Source of the DNA: a virus
Virus record (IMG/VR): IMGVR_UViG_3300025012_000023
Coordinates: 1-36,694 of that record
Strand: one strand, 5' to 3'
Length of the DNA stretch: 36,694 bases
Part shown: positions 1-36,694 of the stretch, in pieces
Layout of the letters: the number at the start of each line of letters is the position of its first letter
How positions within the stretch are numbered: position 1 is the first letter of the stretch
The notes under the pieces: model-generated
The model's input: only the letters and a program-made list of their open reading frames with translations
What the model was told of the DNA's origin: nothing
The model's database searches: none
Program-made: the position numbers and the translations under genes

Positions 1-127
1 AACGAGTGATATAAAAATAATGAAGATATTAAAAGCTCAGTACAGAATTGAGATTGGGACTCTTTTAAAAGTGCTTATAGTATGTCTGATCCTGAAGAAG
101 CAAAGGTAGTAGAAGCTTATTTCCAAG
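1..127. repeat. Terminal direct repeat, left copy (contig overlap)
   Basis: These 127 bases are identical to 36568-36694. The length fits an assembler k-mer overlap of a circular contig rather than a biological terminal repeat, and the reading frame of the large virion gene continues through the join in phase. Inferred: the genome is circular or circularly permuted, with true length about 36,567 bp. Confidence 0.93.
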
Positions 128-11756: not shown

Positions 11757-11833
11757 TGAAAATATGGATTTATACAATATTCGCTATATTTTTACTAACA
11801 TATCACTTGCAAATTGCGAGTGCAATAATTTAG
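11756..11833 (+). CDS. Possible 25-aa membrane peptide
   Basis: MKIWIYTIFAIFLLTYHLQIASAII is a single hydrophobic segment with a signal-like N-terminus. It lies just after the endolysin, and its TAG stop is inside a terminator hairpin, so it would be the last frame of the lysis operon. It could be a lysis accessory peptide; evidence is thin. Confidence 0.35.
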   Translation: MKIWIYTIFAIFLLTYHLQIASAII

Positions 11834-11856
11834 CCTCTTAATCGGAGGCTTTTTTC
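11832..11856 (+). terminator. Intrinsic terminator of lysis operon
   Basis: A 6-bp stem AGCCTC/GAGGCT with a 7-nt loop is followed by a run of T. The TAATCGGAGG part recurs on the opposite strand at 12106-12115 in the terminator of the leftward genes. Confidence 0.85.
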
Positions 11857-22638: not shown

Positions 22639-23289
22639 ATGATTTTAAAAGATGACAACGGTAAAAAATTACCAAAAGAAGTACAAACTAGAGTTAATGC
22701 TTTTATAGATAATCTACCTAAAGTAAACTGGTTTAAACCATATCCAAACTTGAAAAAAGAAGATGTAGAAAAACAGATAAATTTTACACTTGAATGTTTT
22801 TGAGTAAAAGCAGGAATAGAATATAAAACTTTATCAAAACAAGAAGATTGGGCTTCTGCTTGGGCTTCTGCTTGGGATTCTGCTAGGGCTTCTGCTTGGG
22901 ATTCTGCTAGGGCTTCTGCTTGGGATTCTGCTAGGGATTCTGCTAGGGCTTCTGCTTGGGATTCTGCTAGGGCTTCTGCTTGGGATTCTGCTAGGGCTTC
23001 TGCTTGGGATTCTGCTAGGGCTTCTGCTTGGGATTCTGCTTGGGCTTCTCAAGAAATACTATTGGAAGATAATAAAGATTTTAAAGAAAAATATCCAAAT
23101 TGAGCATTTAGACAATTATTTAAATTATGGGAAATGTGATTATACCCAGTATGAGTATTAAAAGAAACTTGAAAATTTACAGTATATGCAGACTCTAAAT
23201 GTATTGATTTATTTAAAGAAGAAAGTATTAAAACAGAATTACCAAACGAATTAAATATTAATTGAAATATTTATATACTTAAGATTTAA
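22639..23289 (+). CDS. Protein with W/R-A/D-S-A tetrapeptide repeats
   Basis: 216 aa. Residues 1-70 and 138-216 are ordinary globular sequence; residues 71-137 are 16 perfect tetrapeptide repeats (W/R)-(A/D)-S-A plus a partial one. Similar AWDSA/ARASA tracts are known from proteins of unknown role in several phages and bacteria. The repeats alternate Trp/Arg and Ala/Asp, mainly in an eight-residue super-repeat. They should form an extended helix or a solenoid with an aromatic and charged face. The DNA in this part is GC-richer than the rest. The number of repeats can change by slippage. Confidence 0.75.
22849..23049 (+). repeat. Tandem 12-bp repeat array inside the coding region
   Basis: Sixteen full units of 12 bp (consensus TGGGATTCTGCT or AGGGCTTCTGCT), plus 9 bp of a further unit, in frame throughout. 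Most pair up as 24-bp units. It is a coding minisatellite, not a CRISPR array: units are contiguous, with no spacers. Confidence 0.95.
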
Positions 23290-27797: not shown

Positions 27798-28616
27798 ATG
27801 AATCTTTGATATTATCCTGAAATATATGTTTGAATGCCAAGCTGAACAGGCTTTCCACATCCTGAAACAATACTAAACATATTCAATCAAACTTGTGTAA
27901 AAAACAGAGAGGTTGAATTAGTGTTTTATTCTGAAAACATTATTAAAAGAAAACCAGTTCAACACGCAAGGAATGAAATAGTCCACAACTTCCTAAAATC
28001 AGGTTGTCACTATCTTTGGTTTGTTGATGATGATAACCCACCAGCTTTAGATGTACTTGAAAACCTACTTGAACACCAAAAAGACTGCGTTTCTGCTTTA
28101 GTTCCTCTAAGACATTGAGATAACTACTTACTAAACATATTCAAAGACTGAAAACACATCACAAGTTACGAATGAATGGAATGACCACTTATCGAAATAG
28201 ATAACTTCTGAACTTGATGTGTTCTGATGAGTAAAGATATAGTCGAAGCAATGTATAAGAAATTTAATTGAAATCCTTATCAATTCAGAATAGAAGAATT
28301 TGTATTAAATGAAATGAATGATGAAGTAGAGAGATACGAGTTTCAGGATAGATATATACAAGATTGGTTTATTAGATATAAGCAAGATGAGTTCTGAAAC
28401 ATACTAAAAAGAGAAGAAAGTATATCAGAGGATTTATTCTTTGGTAGAGAAGCAAAGAAACTTTGATTTAAATTCTATGCAGATTTAAGAAGCCATTGCA
28501 CACACTTTAAAGATATTACTAAGCTAAAAGTAAAATATGAAGAATATAAAACCAACCTTGAGTATTCTGATTCCAACACTACACCAGAAGAATGAGAAGT
28601 GAATTGAATATATTAA
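27798..28616 (+). CDS. GT-A-type glycosyltransferase
   Basis: 272 aa. It starts YYPEIYVGMPSGTGFPHPET, has QHARNEIVHNFLKSGCHYLW, and a FVDDDNPP motif with the metal- and sugar-nucleotide-binding DDD at 77-79, followed by LVPLRH and FGTGCVLMS. This is the pattern of phage-encoded GT2-like transferases. It would put a sugar on phage DNA, on a virion protein, or on a host surface molecule. It lies between terminase and portal, and overlaps the next transferase by 80 bp. Confidence 0.85.
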
Positions 28617-29130
28617 GCTATTAGAAAATCAGATAAGACAACACTTTTATTGTAAACCTATGTTCTGAAATTGAATTGAAGTTAAGAGTGTGGATAATAT
28701 GCTTGTGAACACCGCTTGGAATACACTAGTAAAAGAATGTGAATGAGAGATTATGCTTATCTTAAACGATGATATAGAACTACAAGAAGAAGTATTTGAA
28801 ACACTTGCAAAGCTAGAGAAATGACAGGTTTATTGTCCTTATTTCAGCAGATGAGATAACTTCAATAAGATTTACTCTAACAACTGAAACAATATAGTTT
28901 GATTCTGCTTCGGAATGTATAAGAGTGATTGGAAAGATATTCCAAGTGAACTTAAAATATATTTCTGAGATAATTATATTTATGAGTATATGAACAAGAA
29001 TATTTTATGGGGCTGATATATTCATCATTGGGAATCTAAATCTATTTTTGCACCTGAGAGAAAAGAACAAATAGAAAGTTTAATTAAACAAGATTATATA
29101 GAATGGGATAAAATTATAAGTAACTTATAA
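28537..29130 (+). CDS. Second GT-A-like glycosyltransferase
   Basis: 197 aa. MKNIKPTLSILIPTLHQKNE is the typical first strand and loop of GT-A transferases; MLILNDDIEL at 73-82 carries the DxD-like motif, followed by a GFCFGMYKSDW segment. The first 26 codons lie inside the end of the preceding gene, in another frame; because this part is the conserved start of the fold, the long overlap appears real. Together with the previous gene and the following methyltransferase, it forms a modification cassette. Confidence 0.8.
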
Positions 29131-29134
29131 AAAT

Positions 29135-29656
29135 ATGCACAAGAATATACTAGACTATTGCGAAACAATTAAAAATAAGTTCCCTGAGAGCTTTAAAAGT
29201 AAAAAGGTATTAGAAGTAGGCTCACTTGATATTAACTGATCTGTGAGACAATATTTTACTGATTGTGATTATACTTGAATAGATTTATGAGAATGACCTT
29301 GAGTAGACAGAGTATATGATTTTACAGTGAAATATCAACCAGATGATTTATGGAATTTTGACACTATAATTTCAACTGAAATGTTAGAACACTGCAAACT
29401 ATATAATCAAGCACTTATTAATATGATTAAGTGTCTTAAATCCTGATGACTTCTATTAATAACTGCAGCCTGAGAATGAAGACCTGAACATTGAACAACA
29501 AGAACAAGTCCAAAAGATGCACCATTTACTAATGACTGGTATAAGAATATAACGGAATTAGATTTATTACAAGCACTTCAGCCTAGTATATACTTCTCTG
29601 AATATGAGATATCAATTCAATGAACTGATATAAGATTTTACTGAATAAAATGTTAA
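29135..29656 (+). CDS. SAM-dependent methyltransferase (class I)
   Basis: 173 aa. Motif I VLEVGSLDINGS at 25-36, then YTGIDLGEGPGVD at 46-58 (acidic loop), STEMLEH at 80-86 and LKSGGLLLITAAG, which is a normal small class I methyltransferase. UGA gives the loop and GID glycines. Such enzymes often methylate sugars or nucleotides next to glycosyltransferases. Substrate unknown. Confidence 0.85.
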
Positions 29657-29674: not shown

Positions 29675-29701
29675 TTGACTTTATCAAAAAAAAAGTATAC
29701 T
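29675..29701 (+). promoter_or_regulatory. Candidate late promoter before portal leader
   Basis: TTGACT, 15-bp gap, TATACT. The TTGACTTTAT start and the 15-bp gap match the candidate at 17458. It would begin a transcript near 29708, just at the structured leader. Confidence 0.55.
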
Positions 29702-29713
29702 TAAATTAAGTAA

Positions 29714-29769
29714 GAGCGGAAAACTTATGTATTTAATGCAATCCGCTCGCAACAAATCTTAAGTTTTCC
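29714..29769 (+). ncRNA. Structured leader with pseudoknot potential upstream of portal gene
   Basis: GAGCGGA (29714-29720) pairs with TCCGCTC (29742-29748), and GGAAAACTTA (29718-29727) pairs with TAAGTTTTCC (29760-29769). The order of arms permits an H-type pseudoknot (stems 14-19/43-48 and 21-27/60-66) or two exclusive hairpins. The last bases of the second stem overlap the 5' arm of the terminator that follows, as in an attenuator. It could also be a stand-alone small RNA ended by that terminator. Confidence 0.55.
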
Positions 29770-29792
29770 CTCTTTACCTAGAGGGTTTTTTT
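29768..29792 (+). terminator. Intrinsic terminator in portal leader
   Basis: CCCTCT/AGAGGG 6-bp stem with a 6-nt loop and seven T, ending 22 bp before the portal ATG. Because head genes must be made in quantity, some way past this terminator, or another promoter, is required. Confidence 0.88.
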
Positions 29793-29813: not shown

Positions 29814-31676
29814 ATGGATATAGCTAAACTTACAGCACAAGTTCAAGATGAATACAACCAATGATATCAACATATAAGACAAGAAAGAGATAGAAAACAA
29901 GAAGTATTGTCAAAGATAATACCAAAAAATGTAAAAGAATGAGAAGTTAAAGTCCATTTATTATGGAGGAATCTACAATTAGAGAACTCCTTATTTTTGA
30001 CTGATGAATTTAATGTTGTACTTAACTCTGATGATTGAGTTTTATCAGGGGAGATTATGAAGAATGGAGAAAAAGCAATGAAGTTTGATGATGAAGATAT
30101 GGAACTTATTGAAATGAGAGAAGATATAGTAAACTACAACTGATTATATTGAGTTGCTGTTACTGTTGTTGATTGATTTGATTTTGATGAGAGCCAGCCT
30201 TTATCAGATACTATTGATCCAATGTGTGTAATTCCAGATCCTAAGAATTGGAGATGATCTAAGATGCGTTTTATCTGATTTGAAAGAAAACTAAGCAAAG
30301 AATATCTAAAATCAAACTGATTCAAAAATATATCTGAAATTCAAGAATGAACTAGTTTTGAGATGCAAAAGTATGACAGAAAAGTAAACACAGCAAACAA
30401 CACTAATTACACAGTAGAAACAAACTGACTTTGTGATATCTACGACCATTTCACAGTATTTGAATGAAGAAAATATCTAACAACTTGGGCTAACAACAGA
30501 ACTCTAAATATTAGAATGGTTGAGATTGAATGATTAACAGAAGCAGAAATAAAAAAACCACATAAAGTTAAATTCCCAGTTCAGATACATAGAAGAAAAC
30601 CTGTTTTAAATAGCTTCTTTGGTGTTTCAATAGCTGATGAGGTACTTCAATACCAAGATAGTATTTCAATGCTTGTAAATCTACAAAATATACAAGCAAG
30701 ACTTGCTGCTTTATGACCTGATAAGTTCGTTGATGAAAACCTTTGAATAGATGCATCATTACTAGGAGAGAAACTGCCTTGAGGTAGAGTTATACCAGTA
30801 AGAAGCGGATGAGTTATTTGAAATTCTATATTCAATGACCAACAGATTAATCCAAGTCAATTCCCTACACAATTCAAAACAGAGCTATACAAGATGTCAG
30901 AGGATACAACTTGAGTTAATGCTCTAGCTTTCTGACAATCAGCACCTTGATCACAAACAAAAGCAGAAGTTCAAACACTTATGCAAAATGCAAACCAATT
31001 ATTAAGTTGGGTTGCTTCGAACTATATGAGATGACAAAAGGAATATTGGAAAGCACATTACAAGGCTTATGCTTTATTTATGACTGATAAAGCTAAAAAG
31101 AATGTAAGTTTCTACCAACATTGAAAAGCTATTAGCCTAACACTTAAGAAGAAAGACTTTATATCAGATTGAAAGGTACAAGTTTATATAGAGAGCAAAC
31201 AACAAAAACAAGTAGAGAATGATAAGTCCTTTGCTAAACTGAATACTATTGCAAACCTGTACTTAGGTAATATGAAGCCTTGATATGCAATGAATACATT
31301 TTTAAGAAAACTTTGAGATACACTTTGAGTTGACTGATTTGATTCATCACTATATATAACTCCTTCAGTAGATGAAGAAAGAGCAACAAAAAACTTAGAA
31401 CTTCTTAATAATAACATTGAAATAAGTTGACCTGAAGCTTGAGAGGATTTAAAAACATACATAGACATATACAGCCAAGCAATGGATACTTCTGCGAAAG
31501 AAAAAGCATTGGAAATGTATACAAAAGCCTATATTGATTTTAGACCAGATCCAATAATGCAAGAAATGCAAGCTTGACAGACAGATTGATCTGCTGGAGC
31601 AATGAATTCAAACATAGTTGCAAGTCAGTTAAGTCAATGAAATAAAGTGCCAAGTGTACAAAATGTAGCAATGTAA
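29814..31676 (+). CDS. Portal protein
   Basis: 620 aa, a size usual for short-tailed phage portals. The N-terminal half is acidic with a beta-rich region (TIDPMCVIPDPKNWRG), the middle has IHRRKPVLNSFFGVSIADEV and a helix-rich part (LQYQDSISMLVNLQNIQARL) typical of the portal wing/stem, and a SEDTTGVNALAFGQSAPGSQT loop follows. The C-terminal 90 residues are helical, then polar. It forms the ring at the capsid vertex for packaging and ejection. Position after terminase and before scaffold and capsid genes agrees. Confidence 0.85.
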
Positions 31677-36135: not shown

Positions 36136-36694
36136 ATGGCAATAGATAAAAAGACTTTTGACACACTAGAAGCCTGAGCTAGAAACCAAATAATATCAGC
36201 AAACAACGCTTGAAACAAAGCAGAAGCAGAAAGACTATATCAGTCTTTTTTACCACCAACACCAGTTGCACCAATTGTTAATACTCCTGTTACGCCAACA
36301 ATTAATCAGCCCATACCAAATAATCCTGCACCGATTCAGAATTACATAGAAAAGATGCCTTGACCTGATAATGGTAGTCCAGTTAATACACAGAATGCTA
36401 ATTGAACTTGAATATGAGTAAATCTTTGACCTAGCTTCCAAGAAACACCAAAAACTGAATCAGTAGAGGCTCCAAAACCAGTTACAGTTAAAATAAATAA
36501 ATCTACTAAAACAGAAGCTCCAATTATTGACCCTAATATTAGAAAACAAGAAATAGTTACAAATCTTAACGAGTGATATAAAAATAATGAAGATATTAAA
36601 AGCTCAGTACAGAATTGAGATTGGGACTCTTTTAAAAGTGCTTATAGTATGTCTGATCCTGAAGAAGCAAAGGTAGTAGAAGCTTATTTCCAAG
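36136..36694 (+). CDS. Large virion protein with lysozyme-like domain (5' part; continues at position 1)
   Basis: First 186 codons in the window (144 unique ones before the 127-bp overlap). MAIDKKTFDTLEAGARNQII is followed by a Pro/Asn-rich stretch (LPPTPVAPIVNTPVTP..., several NP and PIPN repeats), probably a flexible linker. The frame meets position 1 in phase and continues to 2556, total 995 aa. The lysozyme-like domain is in the other part. A candidate promoter is just upstream. Confidence 0.85.
36568..36694. repeat. Terminal direct repeat, right copy (contig overlap)
   Basis: Identical to 1-127, showing that the contig closes into a circle. No inverted or cos-like structure is visible at the ends. 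Confidence 0.93.

Follow-up and report, generated by a model that had tools for sequence, protein, structure and literature searches.

The stretch of phage DNA analyzed here, referred to as the window (36,694 nucleotides), is broken into small frames under the standard genetic code and becomes a dense phage genome under code 25, in which TGA encodes glycine. The genes called with this code are almost all plus-strand and include those for terminase, portal, capsid, and tail, as well as lysis-type genes. Window 1-127 and 36568-36694 form a direct repeat of 127 bp and a second contig (L002) spans the junction of the two ends, so the circular map is complete at ~36.6 kb. Scans with the capsid, portal, and terminase recovered one contig identical to the window and ~20 divergent relatives. 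One capsid relative lies on a contig binned with Gracilibacteria, which fits the TGA = glycine code. Another, L019 (JALZUP010000340.1), lies on a contig assigned to a Robiginitomaculum bin; in view of the relatives of this phage, that assignment is probably wrong. In terL (194-2491) of L018, the Gracilibacteria-bin relative, ~940 bp separate the codons that correspond to window-protein residues 147 and 148, an interruption that is possibly an intron or intein.

The portal, or head-tail connector, gene (29814-31676, plus strand, code 25) matches the PHROG 332 head-tail adaptor (E = 9e-5), is syntenic with terL, scaffold, and capsid genes in relatives, and is the first gene of the late operon. 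From 29814 the genes stay on the plus strand throughout, round the circle to 11646, and are followed by an intrinsic terminator 3' of the lysis-region genes (11832-11855, plus strand; hairpin of −9.3 kcal/mol, then TTTTTC) that is the probable 3' end of this operon. Given this one-strand gene run up to the terminator, the leader preceding the portal gene heads a virion and lysis operon of ~18 kb.

Several other features of the genome are recorded here in their own right. The intergenic region of ~200 nt that holds the late-operon terminator also contains a hairpin, CACTTGC/GCGAGTG, directly 5' of that terminator (window 11806-11855). Between terL and portal, the window carries two glycosyltransferase-like genes and a methyltransferase (27798-29656); the closest relatives lack them, and in close relatives with terL the interval is just a short gap. 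Gene starts across window 2558-36136 are mostly without a Shine-Dalgarno-like sequence, and the regions upstream of gene starts are A/T-rich with frequent TTAA and AAACTATG/AAAATATG contexts. A protein encoded at 22639-23289 has an ASAWDSAR-type tandem repeat, and the reverse strand there is open as an RSPSRIP repeat.

The late promoter and its spacing to the portal gene

The top-scoring promoter upstream of portal occupies 29675-29701 on the plus strand, with a −35 element TTGACT (29675-29680), a 15-nt spacer, and a −10 element TATACT (29696-29701). Transcription is predicted to start at ~29708, 7 nt past the −10 element and at practically the first base of the antiterminator strand described below. 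Because a pattern-only promoter scan was uninformative (94 matches found vs 98 expected), we turned to the relatives for evidence. Between the end of the terminase gene and portal, these carry a recurrent promoter consisting of TTGAYW or TTTACA, 15-16 nt, and a TATAMT-like element. Across 16 relatives, the mean best promoter score 20-50 nt from the portal ATG was 10.06, compared with 8.64 ± 0.19 for shuffled sequence (0/300), and four of these 16 had no convincing promoter match 5' of portal. The promoter-like sequence that the original prediction had placed upstream of the leader is thus backed by the relatives. A 15-nt palindrome at 29698-29712 was set aside, as it overlaps the −10 element and lies mostly 5' of the predicted start.

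The distance from the −10 element to the portal ATG is typically 26-31 nt in relatives (range 25-47) vs 112 nt in the window. This excess of ~84 nt amounts to just the switch described below and matches the predicted transcript, 29708-29791. Between the T-tract that ends the leader and the portal ATG, ~20 nt leave no room for a further promoter of the late type, so transcription into portal passes the terminator.

Competing helices in the leader

The leader holds two perfect complementary pairs in the interleaved order a-b-a'-b', followed by an intrinsic terminator, exactly as originally described. Hairpin a (29714-29748, plus strand) pairs GAGCGGA (29714-29720) with TCCGCTC (29742-29748) over 7 bp around a 21-nt loop, and the core of helix b pairs GGAAAACTTA (29718-29727) with TAAGTTTTCC (29760-29769) over 10 bp. 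The terminator (29768-29792, plus strand, −8.7 kcal/mol) consists of CCCTCT (29768-29773), TTACCT, AGAGGG (29780-29785), and a tract of seven T residues (29786-29792); it lies between the −10 element and the portal ATG, the placement expected of an attenuator. Allowing one bulged C, helix b runs on into AAGAG (29712-29716) and CTCTT (29770-29774) plus GU/AC. The extended helix comprises 15-17 bp, with one bulged C and one bulged T, between region 1, the 5' strand of the antiterminator (GTAAGAGCGGAAAACTTA, 29710-29727, plus strand), and region 3, its 3' strand (TAAGTTTTCCCTCTTTAC, 29760-29777, plus strand). Region 3 includes the terminator 5' arm, and the extended helix captures this arm of the terminator hairpin (29768-29785) entirely; the contact between the second pair and the terminator arm had been anticipated, but merely as touching, which understates it. 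Helices a and b share GGA at 29718-29720, and the full helices therefore compete and cannot coexist. A match of 7 bp between TAAGTTT and AAACTTA within portal (29826-29832) was treated as chance, given its lysine-leucine coding context. Overall, this layout is that of a textbook anti-antiterminator, antiterminator, and terminator.

We gauged how readily such an arrangement arises by chance. When the leader was dinucleotide-shuffled, the interleaved 7 + 10 bp pairs arose in 0.15% of cases, and the leader segment folds at z = −3.4. When 29760-29779 was held fixed and the upstream leader was shuffled 2000 times, the antiterminator duplex reached −18.6 kcal/mol compared with −5.3 ± 1.8 kcal/mol in shuffled leaders (0/2000), and the leader folded to 29779 reached −21.1 vs −7.9 ± 2.3 kcal/mol (0/1000 shuffles). 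In a survey of 27 terminator-like hairpins from the window and its relatives, only that at 29768-29792 had a strong upstream partner (z = −6.0; next −3.0), and the terminator at 11832-11855 had no antiterminator partner (z = 0.4).

Hairpin a is the competing upstream helix that an attenuator also calls for, and the alternative outcomes are of near-equal energy: in constrained folds starting at 29704, hairpin a plus terminator gave −22.5 kcal/mol and the antiterminator −22.1 kcal/mol. The two lie about half a kcal/mol apart, so a small push would decide between them. We next computed base-pair probabilities for growing transcripts starting at ~29708, a treatment that leaves out polymerase, kinetics, and pseudoknots. 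Hairpin a had a probability of 1.0 in transcripts up to 29766 (computed for 29750-29766) and was dominant until ~29768. The antiterminator rose to 0.96 at 29770 and then to 1.0 up to about 29784. In transcripts ending at 29785-29792, in which the 3' arm of the terminator is out, the antiterminator held 0.70-0.77 and the terminator 0.23-0.30, giving a 0.71/0.30 mixture as the last of the three states. Masking 29713-29741, which could mimic a factor bound there or a ribosome initiating there, brought the terminator to 1.0, and masking 29730-29759 brought the antiterminator to 1.0.

The best explanation of these computed elements, and one we consider likely, is that the leader of the late (virion) operon is a transcription attenuator, a switch that probably throttles production of virus-particle proteins. 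The earlier suggestion of an attenuator timing late gene expression is in this way partly supported, as the best-supported reading, by the 0/2000 shuffles, the near-equal energies, and the order of states. Polymerase from the late promoter would make a leader of ~85 nt that passes through three successive, mutually exclusive folds. Hairpin a, the anti-antiterminator, would close first; as region 3 emerges, its TAAGTTT would pair with the loop of hairpin a and then displace the stem, such that the crossed a/b pairing may serve as a natural toehold for the exchange of hairpin a for the antiterminator. Once formed, the antiterminator would hold the terminator 5' arm, and polymerase would read on into portal and the virion genes. 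Were hairpin a to persist instead, through binding of a factor or overly slow strand exchange, the terminator would form and transcription would stop at ~29790; masking of region 1 would likewise let the terminator form and end transcription near 29790. What computation shows is the elements with their improbability, order, and energies, the promoter, and the absence of the switch from relatives; the true ends of the RNA, the route of strand exchange, and the regulation of read-through with its agent are inferred.

Distribution of the leader and alternative explanations

One special case of the attenuator, which we regard as unlikely, would have a ribosome set the fold by translating a possible leader ORF (29727-29762, plus strand; MYLMQSARNKS, 11 codons, TAA stop) that overlaps the switch and whose translation is unsupported. 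The ORF contains CGC (29748-29750), a codon used 3 times in 8697, and a ribosome paused near it would cover ~29730-29759, block hairpin a, and free regions 1 and 3. The masking results agree with such control, as do the rarity of CGC and the length of the ORF, which arises in 3.7% of shuffles. On the other hand, the rare codon may simply follow from the G+C-rich stem, and the start context of the ORF resembles that of non-start ATGs, ranking at the 37th percentile among these and at the 2nd among real starts.

Searching viral contigs for exact matches to the stems and scanning them from protein anchors found the leader in one further contig only. That copy is identical to the window, so the comparison yields no covariation evidence, and the suggested search for the same leader in related phages turned up nothing beyond it. 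No leader homologue was found in a phage database, and the divergent relatives inspected are without the element, though the promoter is present in most; as these relatives manage without the switch, it is dispensable within the group. A strong terminator 3' of the late promoter was likewise absent from the relatives inspected. On sequence inspection, hairpins at their terminase/portal boundary lie 5' of the promoter in L036 and overlap it in L043 and L044, and the boundary terminator in L036 would serve solely as an insulator. The simplest reading, drawn from the single lineage that carries the switch, would be its gain in the window lineage.

These boundary hairpins lend some weight to the proposal that the window terminator, too, is a simple insulator that ends the upstream early/packaging operon (terL, glycosyltransferases, methyltransferase), with a non-regulatory leader pairing and late genes expressed by leak-through. 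We think this improbable: the window terminator is 3' of the late promoter and so stops the late promoter's own transcripts too, and the 15-17 bp antiterminator would be left unexplained.

Searches beyond the phage group bear on whether the leader is instead a phage small RNA (~85 nt) that acts in trans, in which case read-through into portal would be incidental. Weak DNA matches (E <= 0.1) in 46 of 287 Gracilibacteria-linked genomes were short, scattered, and at the chance level for that number. Covariance-model matches in 3 of 288 genomes (best E = 5e-4 per genome) were rejected, as they proved to be unrelated terminators whose similarity lies mostly at the 3' end. No Rfam family reached its gathering score, the best sub-threshold match being TarB at 19.6 bits vs 80. 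A promoter, a compact folded RNA, and a terminator are what a free-standing small RNA gene would have, terminated transcripts would be ~85 nt, and a precedent exists in IsrK of the Gifsy-1 prophage, in which a phage promoter gives rise to a short terminated RNA and a read-through mRNA (PMC4825925). Nevertheless, against the translation starts of the phage itself, the strongest pairings did not surpass those of shuffled RNA, and this result, along with the lack of an Rfam match above threshold or a homologue above chance in the sampled genomes, makes the small RNA quite unlikely.

It is very unlikely that the leader forms a stable H-type pseudoknot, such as a fold that binds a ligand or protein. 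The a-b-a'-b' order would permit one, as giving GGA to stem a leaves a 7-bp b stem (29721-29727 / 29760-29766), yet this remaining stem is A/U-rich with a zero-length first loop and a 14-nt second loop, and a fully paired non-crossing alternative exists at −21 to −22 kcal/mol. The stable pseudoknot proposed originally is not supported, since the two pairs share 29718-29720 and are alternatives, and a crossed pairing would be at most a strand-exchange intermediate. Equally remote is a DNA-level inverted repeat (an operator or recombination site) that does not act as RNA; its 18-nt arms, 32-nt spacer, and position directly 3' of the promoter would suit one, but neither arm has a further copy with <4 mismatches in the genome and the exact tie-in with the terminator arm and T-tract would be unexplained.

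Relation to known systems

Read as an attenuator, the leader combines the RNA logic of standard attenuators with a genomic position that is analogous to the pR'-tR' leader of lambda. Both the window and lambda (pR', 6S RNA, tR') have a late promoter and a short terminated leader, with a terminator before the whole virion operon, and in both passing this terminator would be the control step. Lambda passes tR' through the Q protein, which acts on polymerase. In contrast to lambda (for Q and tR', see PMC4604602), the window leader has an RNA antiterminator built in, and no Q-like antitermination protein was recognized among 20 window proteins searched against Pfam and PHROGs. As in bacterial attenuators and riboswitch expression platforms, three mutually exclusive helices follow in the same order with near-equal energies, and the antiterminator takes the terminator 5' arm. 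Unlike these systems, the window leader is without a recognized aptamer, T-box, protein-binding site, or supported leader peptide, and unlike bacterial attenuators it precedes phage virion genes. IsrK resembles it in having alternative structures as well as two transcript forms; it differs in acting in trans and in serving as a translational switch for a downstream ORF (PMC4825925), and we claim no homology between the two. The order of complementary segments is shared with H-type pseudoknot leaders, but in the window these segments overlap and compete.

Gene regulation in TGA = glycine phages of Patescibacteria appears to be poorly known, and a paper devoted to such phages mentions neither promoters nor terminators (PMC10746230). 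We did not find an RNA antiterminator before the late operon of a TGA = glycine phage in the open-access papers searched. The conserved late promoter TTGACW-15/16-TATAMT, usually 26-31 nt 5' of the portal ATG, provides a usable landmark for this phage group. Far more tentatively, a phage of TGA = glycine bacteria (Gracilibacteria/Absconditabacteria type) might decide on virion production through an RNA-only switch heading its late operon. Such a switch, recently acquired within the group, would respond to a signal from the host or the infection (translation state, a ligand, or an RNA) without a Q-like protein. If the attenuator is confirmed, a compact 85-nt RNA switch would set the output of the whole late operon, where lambda-like phages use a protein.
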